This document shows, piece after piece, positions 2,948 through 8,278 of a stretch of 8,278 nt of DNA (positions are counted from its first letter, which is position 1; every line of letters starts with the position of its first letter). Origin of the DNA: Chloroflexota bacterium (lineage in GTDB: Bacteria > Chloroflexota > Anaerolineae > Anaerolineales > Villigracilaceae); assembly GCA_021812905.1 (NCBI GenBank), contig JAKAMM010000065.1, positions 1-8,278 on the forward strand, written 5' to 3'. A model generated the notes under the pieces. The model had not been told where the DNA came from, searched no databases, and was given only the letters and a program-made list of their open reading frames with translations. The translations under genes and the position numbers were made by a program.

Positions 2948-3709
2948 TTATTCCTTCATCTTCACAAAAAACAACGTCGAGCCATTCAACTCCTGCGGCT
3001 TGATCTCGAACGAATCTTTCAGACTGCGCACCAGGCGCGAGAGTTGCTTCTGTCCATAGGTGCGCGGGTCGAAGCCGGGGTCGAGTTGGATGAGGGCATT
3101 CCCCAAACTTGCCAGCGAAGCCCAGCCGTCTTCCTGCACGGCCATCTCGAAGGCCTGACTAAGCAATGGCATCGGGTCGGGTTCTTCTCTTCCATCTTTC
3201 TTCTTGCCCGCCTTGTTCGCCGGGACACGTTTCTGTTGAGCGGCTTTTTTCTCGGCCACCAGATTTTCGGTGTAGACAAAAACGTCGCAGGCATTGACGA
3301 AAGGCTTGGGCGTTTTCTTCTCCCCGATGCCCATCACAAAGATGCCGGTCTCGCGGATACGGGTGGCGAGGCGCGTGTAATCGCTGTCAGACGAGACCAG
3401 GCAAAATCCCTCGACCACGCCCGAGTGCAGGATGTCCATCGCGTCGATGATCATGGCGCTATCGGTGGCGTTCTTGCCGATCGTGTAGCGGAATTGTTGG
3501 ATGGGCTGGAAGGCGTGGAAGTTCAGCGTCTCTTTCCACGAATTCATGTTGGCCGTTGTCCAATCGCCGTAGATGCGCCGGACGGTGACCTGTCCGTAGC
3601 GGGCGGCCTCCACCAGCATTTGCGGAAGCAAAGCAGATTGGGCGTTGTCGCCATCAATCAACATGGCGATTTTGTGACGCGGTAGGTTTGTGAGTTGATC
3701 GTCTGTCAT
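2948..3709 (-). CDS. NYN (PIN-like) domain protein with C-terminal LOTUS/OST-HTH-like domain (253 aa)
   Basis: N-terminal NYN/LabA-like domain of the PIN nuclease superfamily, with its acidic residues in place: IDGDN (Asp19, Asp21, Asn22), YGDW (Asp49), GKNATDSAMIIDAMDIL (Asp83, Asp89) and SSDSDYTRL (Asp108, Asp110), ending near FVYTENL (144-150). A Lys/Ala-rich linker (152-176) leads to a C-terminal region of about 75 residues (178-252) with WASLASLGNALIQ and YGQKQLSRLVRSL. This looks like the winged-helix LOTUS/OST-HTH domain often fused to bacterial NYN domains. Family knowledge suggests a cytoplasmic RNase or RNA-binding protein; the target is unknown. There is no good Shine-Dalgarno site. 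Instead TATAAT ends 6 nt before the ATG, so the mRNA is probably leaderless. It is divergent from the gene at 3890. Confidence 0.9.
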   Translation of the reverse strand: MTDDQLTNLPRHKIAMLIDGDNAQSALLPQMLVEAARYGQVTVRRIYGDWTTANMNSWKETLNFHAFQPIQQFRYTIGKNATDSAMIIDAMDILHSGVVEGFCLVSSDSDYTRLATRIRETGIFVMGIGEKKTPKPFVNACDVFVYTENLVAEKKAAQQKRVPANKAGKKKDGREEPDPMPLLSQAFEMAVQEDGWASLASLGNALIQLDPGFDPRTYGQKQLSRLVRSLKDSFEIKPQELNGSTLFFVKMKE

Positions 3710-3803: not shown

Positions 3804-3842
3804 TCTTTACCAAATCTTTATATTTGCTTGCATCCCGCTTTA
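3804..3842 (+). promoter_or_regulatory. Candidate OmpR-family operator: CTTTA-type repeats at 11-bp spacing
   Basis: TCTTTA occurs at 3804 and 3815, GCTTGC at 3826 and GCTTTA at 3837, all in an exact 11-bp register; a fainter GCTCGT follows at 3848. OmpR/PhoB-family regulators bind direct repeats with this period, one helical turn apart, and such a regulator is encoded at 4705. The array lies 48-86 bp before the ATG at 3890. A possible -10 TACACT (3854-3859) without a recognisable -35 would fit an activator-dependent promoter. Whether this regulator binds here is inference. Confidence 0.4.
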
Positions 3843-3889
3843 TCTCTGCTCGTTACACTGGTTGCATAGTTCATTCAAAAGGAGATAAC

Positions 3890-4645
3890 ATGAATAACAT
3901 ACTGAAAGTTGCTTTGATTGTTGCCGCAGTCTTGGCGGTGGCGGGTGGATTGTTCTTTGCCGGTCAGGCTTATGGAAGTTGGCAAAACGGTTCACAATAC
4001 GGCTTTTGGGGAATGCCGATGATGCGCGGTGGACAGGTGGGCGTTGCGCGTGGCTCAATGATGAACGGTGGTGGCTATGGTTATGTAACCAATGCCCAGC
4101 CGCTGACGGTGGATGAGGCTCGACAGTCCGCGCAAAAATACGTAGACGCTCTCGGCCTTGGCGATCTGAGCCTGGGCGAGGTGATGATCTTCGACAATAA
4201 TGCTTATGTGGTCGTGAAAGAAACCAGCACCGGCATGGGCGCATTTGAATTGCTGGTAGACCCGGTTACGAAAACCGCATATCCCGAGTATGGCCCAAAC
4301 ATGATGTGGAATCTCAAATACGGTGGAATCAATCATGGTGGGATGATGGGCGGACGCGGCTCCATGATGGGTGGGTACGGACGGAATTTCACTAATGCTA
4401 CGCCCTCAAATGTCACGACTGACATGTCGGTGACTCAGGATCAGGCCGTCAAGAACGCGCAGGCTTATCTCGACCAGTATTTGCCCGGGGACACTGCCGC
4501 CACCGATCCGGTCAAGTTTTATGGATATTACACACTTGATTTTTCAAAGGATGGCAAGGTGGTCGGTATGTTGAGCGTCAATGGATACAACGGCGAAGTT
4601 TTTCTTCACACCTGGCACGGAACATTTATTGAGGAAGCCAGATAA
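3890..4645 (+). CDS. Exported or membrane-anchored protein with two PepSY-like repeats and Met/Gly-rich linkers (251 aa)
   Basis: A hydrophobic helix at residues 4-27 (signal peptide or anchor) places the rest outside the membrane. Two similar blocks follow. The first (about 71-140) starts LTVDEARQSAQKYVD, the second (about 178-246) starts MSVTQDQAVKNAQAYLD. Both go on to beta-strand-like sequence in the style of PepSY domains. Each block is preceded by a Met/Gly-rich linker: RGSMMNGGG at 54-62, and HGGMMGGRGSMMGG at 149-162. The linkers carry about 11 Met, with one His149. Thioether-rich segments of this kind often bind Cu(I) or Ag(I), but no function is known to me for this protein. The ATG at 3890 follows AAGGAG (3879-3884) by 5 nt; the earlier ATG at 3794 would bury this site and the repeats. 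It ends in a strong terminator and lies just upstream of the two-component genes. Confidence 0.8.
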   Translation: MNNILKVALIVAAVLAVAGGLFFAGQAYGSWQNGSQYGFWGMPMMRGGQVGVARGSMMNGGGYGYVTNAQPLTVDEARQSAQKYVDALGLGDLSLGEVMIFDNNAYVVVKETSTGMGAFELLVDPVTKTAYPEYGPNMMWNLKYGGINHGGMMGGRGSMMGGYGRNFTNATPSNVTTDMSVTQDQAVKNAQAYLDQYLPGDTAATDPVKFYGYYTLDFSKDGKVVGMLSVNGYNGEVFLHTWHGTFIEEAR

Positions 4646-4658
4646 TTACCAATCGGTT

Positions 4659-4687
4659 GGAGCCGCTGTTCGGCGGCTCCATTTTTT
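4659..4687 (+). terminator. Intrinsic terminator after the PepSY-like gene
   Basis: GGAGCCGC (4659-4666) and GCGGCTCC (4673-4680) form a perfect 8-bp stem with a 6-nt loop. After one A comes a run of six T (4682-4687). It begins 13 nt after the stop at 4645 and separates that gene from the response regulator. Confidence 0.88.
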
Positions 4688-4692
4688 ACGGG

Positions 4693-4698
4693 TACAAT
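4693..4698 (+). promoter_or_regulatory. -10 element of the two-component operon, predicted leaderless
   Basis: TACAAT, five of six to consensus, ends six bases before the ATG at 4705, so +1 would be the A of the start codon. No Shine-Dalgarno sequence precedes the gene. The -35 position (about 4670-4675) falls inside the 3' arm of the preceding terminator and shows no good match. Confidence 0.5.
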
Positions 4699-4704
4699 TT
4701 GAAT

Positions 4705-5394
4705 ATGTCCAACGCAAGAATCCTTGTCATTGACGACGAGCCCAGCATCGTGAATCTCGTCTCGGCTTATCTCAAGCCGGAAGGTTACGAAGTCTTCACT
4801 GCGGCTGATGGCCCGTCTGGGCTCAAGGCGATGCGCGCTTTCAAGCCCGACCTGGTGATCCTCGACATCATGCTGCCCGGCATGGACGGCTTGGAATTGC
4901 TCTCGCGTCTGCGGCGCGAATCGGAAGTCTATGTGATTCTGCTGACGGCGAAAACCGAAGAGACCGATAAGATCGTAGGACTTTCGGTGGGGGCGGACGA
5001 TTATGTGACCAAACCTTTTAGCCCGCGCGAGTTAACGGCTAGAGTCAAAGCCGCGCTGAGACGCGTCCAAACAGGGGCCGCTCCAGGGTCCGAAATGAGC
5101 GTACTGGCTTTTCGTCATCTGAGAATCGATCTCGGCGCGCGGCAAGCCACGGTGGATGATGTCCCTGTCGAATTAACTGCCATTGAATTTGATCTTTTGA
5201 AAGCGCTGGCCGAACAACGCGGCCGAGTCTTGTCGCGCGAACAACTATTGCAGAAAGTTTGGGGCGTCGAATATTTTGGCGAGATGCGTGTGGTGGATGT
5301 GCATCTCGGTCACGTGCGCCAAAAGTTGGGCCGCGAAGAATTGATCGCCACCGTGCGCGGCGTCGGTTATCGTTTTGAAGACGAGGCATTATAG
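4705..5394 (+). CDS. OmpR/PhoB-family response regulator (229 aa)
   Basis: Cytoplasmic DNA-binding regulator, phosphorylated by a sensor kinase. The receiver domain (about 4-118) has the acidic pair Asp10/Asp11, phosphoacceptor Asp54 in VILDIMLPGMDG, Thr81 in LLTAK and Lys103 in TKPFSPREL. After a short linker the winged-helix effector (about 131-227) shows LTAIEFDLLKAL, REQLLQKVWG, VVDVHLGHVRQKLG and the wing VRGVGYRF. The length is normal. I chose the ATG at 4705 because the receiver fold starts right there (MSNARILVIDDE); the earlier ATG at 4657 would begin inside the terminator stem. It heads an operon with the histidine kinase 84 nt downstream. Its likely targets include the 11-bp repeats at 3804-3842, which is inference. 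PhoB/RegX-like names would be guesses. Confidence 0.95.
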   Translation: MSNARILVIDDEPSIVNLVSAYLKPEGYEVFTAADGPSGLKAMRAFKPDLVILDIMLPGMDGLELLSRLRRESEVYVILLTAKTEETDKIVGLSVGADDYVTKPFSPRELTARVKAALRRVQTGAAPGSEMSVLAFRHLRIDLGARQATVDDVPVELTAIEFDLLKALAEQRGRVLSREQLLQKVWGVEYFGEMRVVDVHLGHVRQKLGREELIATVRGVGYRFEDEAL

Positions 5395-5426
5395 TGTTTT
5401 GCAGGCAAGGTCAAAATGTGTTGTCT

Positions 5427-5454
5427 GGGAGACTGCTTCGGGGAAAAGCATCCC
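5427..5454 (+). repeat. Hairpin between the regulator and kinase genes
   Basis: GGGA (5427-5430), a 3-nt bulge and TGCTT (5434-5438) pair with AAGCA (5446-5450) and TCCC (5451-5454) around a 7-nt loop. It lies in the 84-nt gap inside the operon and lacks a T-run, so it is not a terminator. It could be an mRNA stability or translation element, or chance. Confidence 0.35.
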
Positions 5455-5478
5455 TCGCAGCGACATAAAAGAGGAATT

Positions 5479-6633
5479 ATGGTTGATACCTTTCGCCGCC
5501 ATCTCAGCGCAAAACTTCTTTTTTCATATCTCATCATCATTGCGGTTGGCTTCCTGGTCCTGATCGTAGCTGGTCAGTTCAGCGCGCCGACCGCTTTCAA
5601 TCGTCACATGGCCGAAATGATGGTCCCTAGTACGGGCCAAATGATGGGCGGCATGGGCCAGATGATGGGCGGCCCCGGACAGGGCAGCGCGAGCCAGCGT
5701 CTTTACCAGGATTTTCGCGCCAGTTTTAATGAAGCTCTTTTATACGCCGTGTTCGCTGCGGTTCTGGTCGCCGTGGTGGTGAGCATCATCTTCAGCCGCA
5801 GCGTGGTTGCACCTCTGCACGCTGTCATGGACGCGAGTCAGCGCATCGCCGCCGGTAGTTATGACGAGCGTGTGCGGGTATATGGCAACGATGAACTTGC
5901 TCAACTGGCGGCGCGCTTCAATCAAATGGCAGAGAAACTCGAACAGGTCGAGTCCATGCGCCGTCGTCTGATTGGCGATGTCAGTCACGAACTTCGCACG
6001 CCGTTAACCGCCATCAAAGGTTCGATGGAAGGCCTGATCGATGGCGTCCTGCCAGCCACGCATGAAACGTATCAACAAATTTACACCGAGGCCGATCGTT
6101 TGAATCGGTTGGTGGATGATTTGCAGGAACTCAGCCGCGTCGAGGCAGGTTCTTATCATTTGGATATCAAGCCCGTTGACGTTTCCAGCCTTGTGCAGAC
6201 GGTTGCCAAGCGGCTTTCTCTGCAATTTGAATCCAAGCGCATCTCCCTGGACCTCAAGCTGGCTCCCGACTTGCCGCGTGTCCAGGCTGACGAAGACCGC
6301 GCCGTACAGGTTCTGACCAACCTGGTCGGCAACGCATTACAGTACACGCCGGAGAACGGCAAAGTGAGCGTGTCCGCAACGCGCCTCAATGACGAAGTTC
6401 AAATTGCCGTGCATGATACCGGTATCGGAATCCCGCCCGAACATTTGACTCACATCTTCGACCGCTTCTACCGTGTCGACAAATCGCGCTCACGCCGCGC
6501 CGGCGGCGGAAGCGGCATCGGCCTGACCATCGCGCGGGCGCTGGTCGAGGCGCAGGGGGGGCGCATCTGGGCCGGGAGCGAAGGCGAAGATCAAGGAAGT
6601 ATATTTACCTTCACTCTAAGAACCGTCAAGTAA
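5479..6633 (+). CDS. HAMP-containing sensor histidine kinase with a Met-rich extracytoplasmic loop (384 aa)
   Basis: Membrane kinase partner of the preceding regulator. TM1 (about 13-33) and TM2 (about 87-107) flank a short outer loop of some 53 residues. The loop holds His43 and eight Met between 44 and 63, including two tandem GQMMGG repeats. A HAMP domain (about 108-160) follows. The HisKA domain carries SHELRTPLTAIKG with phospho-acceptor His170. The ATPase domain shows the N box with Asn285 (NLVGNALQYTP), G1 DTGIGIP (313-319), the F box FDRFYR (327-332) and G2 GGGSGIGL (342-349). The ATG at 5479 follows GAGG by 4 nt and places TM1 directly after a short basic N-terminus; a start at 5416 would add 21 implausible residues. 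The loop composition suggests a soft-metal ligand such as Cu(I) or Ag(I), but this is inference. A terminator follows 8 nt after the stop. Confidence 0.95.
   Translation: MVDTFRRHLSAKLLFSYLIIIAVGFLVLIVAGQFSAPTAFNRHMAEMMVPSTGQMMGGMGQMMGGPGQGSASQRLYQDFRASFNEALLYAVFAAVLVAVVVSIIFSRSVVAPLHAVMDASQRIAAGSYDERVRVYGNDELAQLAARFNQMAEKLEQVESMRRRLIGDVSHELRTPLTAIKGSMEGLIDGVLPATHETYQQIYTEADRLNRLVDDLQELSRVEAGSYHLDIKPVDVSSLVQTVAKRLSLQFESKRISLDLKLAPDLPRVQADEDRAVQVLTNLVGNALQYTPENGKVSVSATRLNDEVQIAVHDTGIGIPPEHLTHIFDRFYRVDKSRSRRAGGGSGIGLTIARALVEAQGGRIWAGSEGEDQGSIFTFTLRTVK
5634..5675 (+). repeat. Two tandem 21-bp repeats in the kinase sensor loop
   Basis: Units 5634-5654 and 5655-5675 share 18 of 21 bases. They encode GQMMGGM and GQMMGGP (residues 53-59 and 60-66). 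The repeat lies wholly within the outer loop, so copy number would change the number of Met pairs without breaking the frame. Confidence 0.8.
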
Positions 6634-6641
6634 GACATTTT

Positions 6642-6669
6642 GAGACCGCTAATTTGGCGGTCTTTTTTT
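6642..6669 (+). terminator. Intrinsic terminator of the two-component operon
   Basis: GAGACCGC (6642-6649) pairs with GCGGTCTT (6657-6664), 8 bp including one G-U pair at the base, around a 7-nt loop. The T-run spans 6663-6669. It starts 8 nt after the kinase stop codon. Confidence 0.85.
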
Positions 6670-6754: not shown

Positions 6755-7183
6755 ATGAATTTTAGTACTGTCAATTGGTTGGCCGTGATTGCCTGCGTTG
6801 TAGCCAGTATGATTATTGGGTTTATCTGGTTTGGCCCCAAAACATTTTACCCGATGTGGTGGAAGGCTATCGGCAGGTCAGAGAGTGACGATCCTGGCAA
6901 AGGGATGAACATGGGAGTGATGTGGGGACTGACCATACTCGCCTCTTTTGTCCAGGCCGTATTCATGTCCCTCATGGTGACAGCAATGGGGAGCATAACG
7001 CCGGGAGGCGCAACGCTCGTTTCCGGCGCAACGGCTGGTTTCATTCTCTGGCTTGGATTTGTCATGCCTTCGAGCTTGACAAATAAATTGTTTGCAAATC
7101 AATTAACCGCCTGGATGCTCGAAATGGGAAACCATTTGATCACCTTTGTGGTGATGGGTGCGATTTTGGGCGCATGGCGCTGA
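6755..7183 (+). CDS. DUF1761-like integral membrane protein (142 aa)
   Basis: Small protein with four hydrophobic segments at about 6-27, 54-78, 86-107 and 121-141. The opening NWLAVIACVVASMIIGFIWFGP (from residue 7) is the hallmark start of DUF1761 proteins, where an Asn-Trp/Tyr-Leu-Ala-Val helix runs into a W-(Y/F)-x-P turn. A conserved-looking second part contains GFVMPSSLTNKLF (101-113). The function of the family is not known, and no catalytic motif is visible. The ATG at 6755 has AGGAGG (6744-6749) at a 5-nt spacing. It sits between two terminator-like hairpins, so it is probably a single-gene transcript. A role with the adjacent two-component system is possible only by proximity. Confidence 0.75.
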   Translation: MNFSTVNWLAVIACVVASMIIGFIWFGPKTFYPMWWKAIGRSESDDPGKGMNMGVMWGLTILASFVQAVFMSLMVTAMGSITPGGATLVSGATAGFILWLGFVMPSSLTNKLFANQLTAWMLEMGNHLITFVVMGAILGAWR

Positions 7184-7205
7184 CCCGGCCCAACCTGTAC
7201 TAAAA

Positions 7206-7249
7206 TAGACCTTGAAGGTTATGCAAACCTTCAGGGTCTAACTATTTTT
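7206..7249 (+). terminator. Strong hairpin with T-run before alr: terminator or leader attenuator
   Basis: Arms 7206-7220 and 7226-7240 form a 15-bp stem with a single G-U pair and a 5-nt loop. ACTA and five T (7245-7249) follow, so the T-run starts 4 nt after the stem, weaker than a classical terminator. It begins 22 nt after the DUF1761 stop and ends 12 nt before the alr start. The alr ribosome site GGAG (7252-7255) lies immediately downstream. A TAAAAT (7201-7206) just before it could be a -10, in which case the hairpin would be at the 5' end of the alr mRNA. Confidence 0.65.
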
Positions 7250-7260
7250 ATGGAGAACTT

Positions 7261-8278
7261 ATGCGTCCGACTTATTTGGAAGTAAATCTATCCCGCCTGA
7301 AACAAAATCTCGAAAATATCCGTGCGCACGTTGCGCCTGCCAAAGTGATGGCCGTGCTTAAAGCCAACGCTTATGGCCATGGCGTGGACGGTGTTGGGCC
7401 GTTCATCGCACCGTTCGCTGACTATATTGGCGTGGCGTTGGTGGAGGAGGGTATTCATCTGCGTGAACTCGGCATTGACAAACCGATTCTGGTGATGGGT
7501 GGGACTCTGCCTGAACAAGTTTCGTCATTTATCGAGCACAACCTGACACTGGCGGCGTCATCGCCCGAACTGCTCGAAGCGGCGGAAGAAGCGGCGCGCG
7601 CCGAGAAGACAAAACTCAAAGTGCATCTAAAAATTGATACTGGCATGGAGCGCACGGGCGTTCATGAGTATGAGGCTGAGCTGTTCATCGAAAAATCTCT
7701 AGCGTGTAGCCATTTAGATATTGAAGGGATATTTACCCACTTCGCAAATTCGGAATCGCCGGATTTAGTCCACGCCCGATTGCAGTTGGAAAGATTTCAG
7801 GATGTTCTGGCAATTTATGAAAAGTTGAGCGTGCCACATCCGCCGATTCGCCACGCGGCAAATTCGGGCGCGGTTTTGAATCTGCCTGAAAGTTATTTCG
7901 ACATGGTGCGTCCGGGCGTGATGTTTTATGGAGTCTATCCAGAGCGCGAGATCAAACGGGCGCTTGATGTTCGGCCAGCGCTGACATGGCGTTCGCAAGT
8001 TGCATTCTCAAAAGTCACGCGGCCCGGACGGCCGGTCAGCTATGGGTCGCTGTGGCAGGCCGAAAGTCCCGCGCGAATCGTAACTGTCCCGTGCGGATAT
8101 GCCGACGGATATTTCCGCCGCATGACCAACCAGGCGCGCGTCATCGTCAATGGGAAAAAATATCCGCAGGTTGGGCGCATTTGCATGGATCAGTTCATGG
8201 TCAATCTCGGTGAAGATGATGCGCGGGTTGGCGATGAGATCATTTTATTGGGCGAAGCCGCGTCGGGCGAGAGAATCA
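7261..8278 (+). CDS. alr: Alanine racemase, 3' end cut by the window (339 codons seen)
   Basis: PLP enzyme interconverting L- and D-alanine for peptidoglycan precursors in the cytoplasm. My own translation is open from 7261 to the window end. It shows the PLP-lysine motif VLKANAYGHG (Lys34), GVALVEEG (57-64), HLKIDTGMERTG (Lys124, Arg131), GIFTHFANS (156-164), RHAANSGAVL (197-206), MVRPGVMFYG (215-224), the second catalytic base Tyr261 in VSYGSLW, the phosphate-binding region GYADGY (279-284) and GRICMDQFMVNL (305-316). Family members are about 370-390 aa, so some 35-50 residues are missing off the end. Small departures are Glu130, where GMGR is usual, and Cys278 before GYADGY. The ATG at 7261 has GGAG at a 5-nt spacing. 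The strong hairpin upstream may limit read-through into the gene. Confidence 0.96.
   Translation, partial: MRPTYLEVNLSRLKQNLENIRAHVAPAKVMAVLKANAYGHGVDGVGPFIAPFADYIGVALVEEGIHLRELGIDKPILVMGGTLPEQVSSFIEHNLTLAASSPELLEAAEEAARAEKTKLKVHLKIDTGMERTGVHEYEAELFIEKSLACSHLDIEGIFTHFANSESPDLVHARLQLERFQDVLAIYEKLSVPHPPIRHAANSGAVLNLPESYFDMVRPGVMFYGVYPEREIKRALDVRPALTWRSQVAFSKVTRPGRPVSYGSLWQAESPARIVTVPCGYADGYFRRMTNQARVIVNGKKYPQVGRICMDQFMVNLGEDDARVGDEIILLGEAASGERI

Follow-up and report, generated by a model that had tools for sequence, protein, structure and literature searches.

What does a Met-rich exported protein do beside a two-component system whose sensor kinase carries the same Met/Gly motif? The question is raised by positions 3890..6633 of an 8,278-nt stretch of Chloroflexota DNA (contig JAKAMM010000065.1, hereafter the window), where three plus-strand genes encode the exported protein (EXP), a response regulator, and a sensor histidine kinase. 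A first-pass annotation made from the DNA letters alone had proposed that EXP and the kinase bind the same soft metal. Sequence comparisons indicate that this trio is quite probably a Cu(I)-responsive (and probably also Ag(I)-responsive) two-component operon. In Chloroflexota relatives it is likely to control a set of copper-defence genes, since the array of sites preceding EXP also precedes copper pumps in related bacteria.

Conservation of the gene trio

A pattern search of the genome collection returned 533 matches, 501 of which coded for EXP relatives, and the best 80 of these loci were examined. The same trio was present in other genomes: among the best 80 loci, a kinase gene lay downstream of EXP (same strand, <2.5 kb) in 60 and upstream in 6, and neither arrangement was seen in 14, some of which are archaeal or lie at contig ends. 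According to the record titles, 75 of the 80 loci belong to Chloroflexota, in which genera such as Leptolinea (L035, Leptolinea sp. HRD-7) are placed, four are archaeal, and one is from Clostridiales. The loci closest to the window (L001 and L002) are titled Chloroflexi and Anaerolineae.

The EXP relatives of the four contigs titled archaeon or Methanophagales (L076, L077, L078, and L080) are 47–50% identical and have no linked kinase that we could find; gene transfer or mis-binning is a possible origin. The Clostridiales contig (L041, Clostridiales bacterium PH28_bin88) has the same arrangement as the Anaerolineae loci L034, L035, and L042, with very similar match scores, and is probably mis-binned.

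The promoter array and the response regulator

An array of four CTTYA boxes with exact 11-bp spacing occupies positions 3805..3842 (plus strand), outside 3890..6633, and ends 47 nt 5' of the EXP gene. Its third box is degenerate (CTTGC), giving 2 mismatches in 20 positions, and a -10-like element TACACT (3854..3859, plus strand; family consensus TATACT) is located 49 nt after the array start. The 170 nt upstream of EXP were compared in 41 cases, comprising the window and 40 of the 80 loci, matched from residue 1; some near-duplicates and contig-edge cases were dropped. An array score of at least 17/20 was found in 36 of the 41 regions vs 0 of 2050 mononucleotide shuffles, and arrays with periods of 8, 9, 10, 12, or 13 were absent from all 41. 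No array lay within 170 nt in L018, L033, L044, L052, and L074, although L033 and L044 have one further upstream. The hexamer best matching TATACT was at an offset of 49 nt from the array start in 35 of the 36 arrays. A sigma-70 consensus scan missed the EXP promoter, which is to be expected if the array replaces the -35 box.

The second gene of the trio (4705..5394, plus strand) encodes an OmpR/PhoB-type response regulator of 229 aa with receiver (PF00072, 113.7 bits) and winged-helix Trans_reg_C (PF00486, 91 bits) domains, both above cut-off. Direct repeats of 11 bp in the promoter are a feature of OmpR/PhoB regulators, and the EXP promoter contains such repeats as a predicted binding site. 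The regulator missed the heavy-metal response regulator family TIGR01387 (170.6 bits vs 279.2).

Array sites and the link to copper

The array was searched for, with at most one mismatch, in 20 whole genomes from the 80 loci, chosen for having EXP, and occurred 48 times in 18 of them (reversed pattern, 2). Across 100 genomes sampled evenly from the class, it occurred 34 times, in 23 genomes (reversed, once). It was present in 14 of the 28 genomes with EXP vs 9 of the 72 without (Fisher p = 1.6e-4); where both were present, the array lay within about 1 kb 5' of EXP in 8 of 14. The conservation of this cis-element across relatives (36/41) and its co-occurrence with EXP thus support the earlier proposal that the regulator controls the locus through the 11-bp repeats.

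The gene first encountered after the array, at 97 distinct sites with 0–1 mismatch, was EXP in 51 cases, a member of the SHOCT cluster in 29, a member of a GMMGG membrane cluster with a CxxC tail in 6, and a response regulator in 1; two clusters were represented once each, six first genes were unassigned, and two sites had no frame. This tally is skewed toward EXP, since the loci were largely gathered around it. The small GMMGG membrane proteins (cluster C181) end in a CxxC..CxxC tail; a SHOCT label given to this cluster ("SHOCT2") was discarded as a family result, there being no NCBIfam match.

At 16 of the 48 array sites, the same strand carries an ATPase gene that exceeds the TIGR01511 cut-off and begins no more than 6 kb downstream, vs 0.17 expected. 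Only array-linked, strongly Cu-scoring ATPases were counted in the argument for copper. There are 11 such enzymes, scoring 588–630 bits (cut-off 397) and reached from 13 of the 48 sites, so that at these sites the array is a cis-element common to copper efflux genes; the other three sites lead to a weaker group with 432–440 bits. The eight strong array-linked ATPases inspected (L160-L167) carry either CPC with MAFSS/MAVSS or CPH with MSLST motifs, which we take to be marks of Cu-type P1B-1 and P1B-3 pumps. Mere proximity of a P-type ATPase to the trio (one cluster, 26 loci) was dropped as an argument for copper after motif and model checks revealed a mixed group, and plain adjacency therefore overstates the link.

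Several operons combine these elements. The gene order in Levilinea saccharolytica (L060, strain KIBI-1) and some others is EXP, regulator, kinase, array, SHOCT, CueP, ATPase. The CueP cluster was found in 7 loci, and the one representative scored reached 186.9 bits with its metallochaperone model, slightly under the cut-off of 195, and 165.6 with the CueP family, over the cut-off of 60. In L174:855-8301, from a genome where no EXP was found, the order is array, CueO-like oxidase, regulator, kinase, array, SHOCT, CopA; the oxidase stands in the place of EXP, and CopA scores 620.8 bits vs the cut-off of 397. Clusters of cupredoxin/COX2-like, PCYCGC, Fer4_5 ferredoxin-type, and multicopper oxidase proteins recur near the trio.

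Beside the trio in L010, L024, L038, L040, L063, and L072, we also observed members of a recurring set made up of cupredoxins, Fer4_5 ferredoxin-type membrane proteins, COX2-cytochrome c fusions, and PCYCGC and DUF1573-like proteins. This set may be a unit for electron transfer or copper-enzyme assembly. The neighbour-cluster labels DUF1573, TlpA, ArsR, CcdA, DoxX, LysM, and zinc ribbon are provisional readings of the sequences.

The sensor kinase and its Met-rich loop

The sensor histidine kinase (5479..6633, plus strand; 384 aa) has HAMP, HisKA, and HATPase_c domains. Its extracytoplasmic loop, residues 34-82 (49 aa; 5578..5724, plus strand), contains eight Met, one His, and GQMMGGMGQMMGG, as claimed in the first-pass annotation, whose numbering of Met 55, 56, 62, and 63 is also right for a kinase start at 5479. 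The sequence H43-M44-x-x-M47-M48 near the outer end of the first transmembrane helix (TM1) is followed by QMMGGMGQMMGG. Methionine is enriched in the loop (8 in 49 vs 1.5% in the remaining kinase, binomial p = 6e-7). The motif stretch shared with EXP is a weak repeat at the DNA level too (40 nt, 73%).

In an alignment of 29 kinases (the window plus 28 of 91 sensor-part matches), H43 and M55 were invariant despite variation in loop length, while M62/M63 of the second GQMMGG were common to the closest relatives only. The structure model is of low confidence; the loop appears unfolded, with a predicted local distance difference test score (pLDDT) of <50 at residues 35-72, and the TM1 helix, if so modelled correctly, would reach residue 47 and place H43, M44, and M47 at its outer end. 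The 66 linked kinases were reduced to 57 non-redundant ones at 95% identity, of which 54 kept H[MLI]x1-3M in the loop and 53 had a loop Met content of at least 8%.

Paralogues from three genomes served as a control: of 30 kinase loci, 23 could be parsed, and in 14 the two-TM loop was 20 aa or longer. A loop Met content of at least 10% was found only in the three EXP-linked kinases among these 14, and the 11 unlinked ones were not Met-rich, although the long-loop kinase L136 has a short Met patch too. Such patches occur in long-loop kinases that are not directly beside EXP, namely L006:5152-6846 (minus strand; GMMGPMMGPQMM) and L136 (SMSMGMMG), which are perhaps a second class of Met sensors.

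The exported protein

EXP (3890..4645, plus strand; 251 aa) consists of an N-terminal membrane helix, two PepSY-like halves, and Met/Gly linkers. Linker 1 (residues 29-65; 3974..4084, plus strand) is a disordered Met/Gly stretch, and linker 2 (residues 148-172; 4331..4405, plus strand) carries GMMGGRGSMMGG; pLDDT is <50 in both. The GMMGG (151-155) and SMMGG (158-162) motifs reported earlier are both present, the N-terminal region also has MPMMRGG and SMMNGG, and the protein contains three His.

Conservation was assessed in 82 aligned rows (the window plus 81 open reading frames from 80 loci), in which the linkers align poorly. Well-kept residues are M57 and M58 (72 rows each), M99 (79), M138 (79), M139 (81), M159 (72), and M160 (71), together with M227 (81), H240 (81), W242 (82), and H243 (80), so that Met of both linkers and core are retained along with the HxWH motif. 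M152 (41) and M153 (37) of the GMMGG pair, M44 (25), and H149 (28) are poorly kept. The implication that homologues of the pair should conserve their Met therefore holds for the kinase loop and EXP as wholes and fails for kinase M62/M63 and the GMMGG pair, which vary.

The structure model comprises the N-terminal helix and two similar alpha/beta halves (74-132 and 183-247). No Pfam family matched EXP above cut-off, PepSY (PF03413; 13.9 of 24) and YPEB_PepSY1-2 (17.7 of 31.7) remaining below gathering, whereas 13 and 10 of 28 EXP relatives, respectively, matched these models at E 0.01. The best PDB fold match was the C-terminal domain of YpeB (5boi, E 8.8e-4). The next matches, copper amine oxidases (E 0.009-0.06), were taken to be fold noise. 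A PDB sequence search with the EXP family gave nothing significant (ZraP, at E 0.29, is at chance level), and viral contigs contained no confirmed EXP relative. The family is large: of 7999 candidates scored, 7351 matched at E 0.001; among the 120 matches listed, the sole protein name given is "hypothetical protein". The names SilE and PcoE were absent from the Pfam (E up to 1) and NCBIfam (E up to 0.1) matches of EXP, the presence of such a model in these libraries being unchecked.

A terminator-like hairpin followed by TTTTTT separates EXP from the regulator (4658..4681, plus strand), although such sites in the region are no commoner than in shuffles. Hairpins with a T-rich tail were found in 51 of 59 EXP-regulator junctions vs 29 of 295 shuffles; one mismatch was allowed, some loci are near-duplicates, and a few matches fall within the first bases of the regulator gene. 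This conserved hairpin suggests that the cell produces more EXP than regulator and kinase, as would suit a buffer or chaperone. Another terminator-like hairpin follows the kinase gene (6642..6664, plus strand), with its placement as the only support and numbers no higher than in shuffles.

Proposed function

These data are best read as a Cu(I)/Ag(I)-responsive regulon that includes a Met-rich tandem-PepSY protein of its own, putatively a copper buffer or chaperone. Soft metal in excess on the outer side of the cytoplasmic membrane would be bound by the Met/His cluster of the kinase loop, and H43, M44, and M47 at the end of TM1 would form a metal site, most likely at the dimer interface. The kinase would then phosphorylate the regulator, as is usual in the family, and the regulator is predicted to bind the four 11-bp CTTYA half-sites just 5' of the TATACT-like -10 box and to activate transcription. 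Activation at the array would raise mainly EXP, with the hairpin after EXP restricting read-through to the regulator and kinase. EXP is presumed to be a tandem-PepSY protein anchored in the membrane; its Met/Gly linkers and conserved Met/His core may bind Cu(I), which it would buffer or hand over outside the membrane.

A bolder and only tentative extension is that this is a separately evolved minimal copper sensor, in which a kinase devoid of a folded sensor domain reads Cu(I) through the HMxxM turn and MM pairs at the membrane. EXP and the small MMG-rich membrane proteins would share its ligand chemistry, and buffer, sensor, and pump would make up one extracytoplasmic Met relay, with the buffer setting the threshold of the sensor.

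No description of the trio or the CTTYA array was found in the open-licence PMC literature, as far as titles and the beginnings of abstracts mostly reveal. For a bacterial group known chiefly from metagenomes, the result provides a candidate regulator, a binding site that can be read from sequence, and a list of targets; it also suggests a function for a large protein family. The kinase, as a very small putative metal sensor, may be of use for mechanistic work.

Neighbouring genes and a 27-bp element

Directly upstream, positions 2948-3709 encode, on the opposite strand, a protein with NYN and OST-HTH/LOTUS domains, whose sequence cluster also occurs near EXP in L001, L007, and L030. The remaining flanks (161-2885 and 6755-8278) encode a putative esterase, a DUF1761 protein, and two alpha/beta hydrolases, and they include an alanine racemase gene that is largely present but truncated where the window ends; these flank genes show no sign of a copper link.

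A near-identical mini-element of 27 bp, CACTTG CACCTG GCG CAAGTG CAGGTG, consisting of two interleaved complementary hexamer pairs, was noticed at 32 distinct places in the loci, one in the viral contig L208 (other examples are L006 near 10166 and 10574, L008 near 10211, L017 near 10514, and L170 near 995). It lies at A^T sites in 29 of the 32 places, 10 of them ATGA^TG, and inside EXP genes it is read in frame as TLAPGASAGV at ATGA^TG sites. With at most one mismatch, 38 copies were found in 9 of 15 genomes, some of which had been chosen for carrying it, vs 0 for the reversed control; the window has 0 copies. The element resembles the very small mobile repeats of cyanobacteria.

Weighing the alternatives

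Several observations weigh against a copper-responsive trio. In the window itself, there is a single array and no copper gene. The kinase missed the Cu/Ag sensor families TIGR01386 (cztS_silS_copS; 189.2 bits vs 292.55) and NF007345 (149 vs 423). Of the 57 linked kinases, three lack H[MLI]x1-3M and four fall below 8% Met, the loop of L062 among them being poorly parsed. The EXP model is only moderately confident (mean pLDDT 68), and its fold match is weak (TM-score 0.29). In the class sample, 9 of the 72 genomes where EXP was not detected nevertheless match the array, and 6 of the 14 that have both lack an array close upstream of EXP. Some class-sample matches are probably not promoters: those in G116 form a tandem repeat, and those in G021, G060, and G092 are near-identical. 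Among eight trio-side ATPases rescored, six (L008, L012, L017, L022, L019, and L029) score higher with general or Zn/Cd models than with the Cu model, L025 is Ca-type, and L016 is Cu-type. The weaker group accounts for three of the 16 array-linked ATPase cases, and the L174 oxidase falls below the CueO cut-off (285.6 vs 525).

The mixed ATPases bear on whether the trio answers other metals, or a wider range of them (soft or borderline, such as Zn, Cd, Pb, and Hg), copper being just one. This would fit the three weaker array-linked cases and also those ATPases beside the trio, in several loci, that Zn/Cd or general models score higher, some of which neighbour an ArsR-like gene. Strong Cu scores, however, are found in 13 of the 16 array-linked cases, the inspected eight carry the presumed copper motifs CPC or CPH, CueP is present in some operons, and the listed loops of linked kinases have no Cys; we consider a broader response unlikely. 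Slightly less probable still is that the kinase senses Met oxidation by reactive chlorine or oxygen, the copper genes being part of an envelope redox response. HprS senses by methionine oxidation, a cluster of Met in a loop that the model shows as disordered would suit such a sensor, and a thioredoxin-like cluster (C17, labelled from its WCPPC motif) recurs near the trio. However, an invariant His accompanies the Met in the 29 kinases, and copper-type ATPases and small Met-rich membrane proteins are among the array targets. That the GMMGG motifs are functionless low-complexity Gly/Met linkers drifting in both genes appears very improbable: linker lengths do vary widely, M152/M153 are aligned in about half of the rows, M62/M63 of the kinase are not general, and the 27-bp element inserts in frame into EXP linkers, yet kinase H43 and M55 and many EXP Met/His are kept despite length change, and further genes under the array also have MMG motifs.

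A more serious, though still doubtful, possibility concerns EXP itself: rather than buffering metal, it could serve the kinase as a co-sensor, regulate it, or act as a YpeB-like PepSY protein. This possibility draws on the YpeB fold match, the frequent operon linkage with the kinase, and the action on SilS that is proposed for SilE in PMC5008109. On the other side, no linked kinase was found with EXP in 14 of the 80 loci, of which some lie at contig ends, and L174 keeps a kinase while the oxidase replaces EXP; an effector fits these cases better than a required co-sensor. We prefer the copper-responsive regulon with EXP as its putative buffer or chaperone.

Comparison with known systems

The trio shares with CusRS, SilRS, and CopRS an OmpR-type regulator, a two-TM kinase, the proposed sensing of metal outside the membrane, and the putative control of export and periplasmic copper proteins. 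It differs from them in the CTTYA x4 array and in a kinase loop of about 40-55 aa that is Met-dominated and has no folded sensor domain. The folded periplasmic domain with interface His ligands of CusS/CopS-type sensors was not found in the kinase, whose 49-aa loop is modelled with low confidence; the loop does have a His close to the membrane, which is invariant in the 29 rows. CopS binds Cu(I) through interface His41 and His140, with Phe42 beside His41, as in CusS, according to PMC7763554; H43-M44 of the kinase is a possible counterpart of His41-Phe42. Since the kinase and regulator fall below the family cut-offs and the folded sensor domain is absent, we do not file the kinase under CusS/CopS.

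Some individual components have partial parallels. CueP, a copper chaperone encoded in the same operons of some relatives and not in the window, is a separate gene and family. A silver-induced membrane protein with a SHOCT domain is described for Haloferax in PMC10694973. PepSY_TM proteins include a putative copper reductase, as stated in PMC13038864, with an architecture unlike that of EXP. EXP resembles YpeB and other PepSY proteins in its putatively PepSY-like halves and differs from them in its Met/Gly linkers, HxWH motif, and copper context. SilE is described in PMC5008109 as a Met/His sponge suggested to act on SilS. EXP is like SilE and PcoE in being an exported Met-containing protein under a two-component system that is here putatively metal-sensing, and unlike them in having two folded PepSY-like halves, only three His, and a membrane anchor. 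By analogy, the trio is best read as functioning like CusRS/CopRS/SilRS together with SilE/PcoE.

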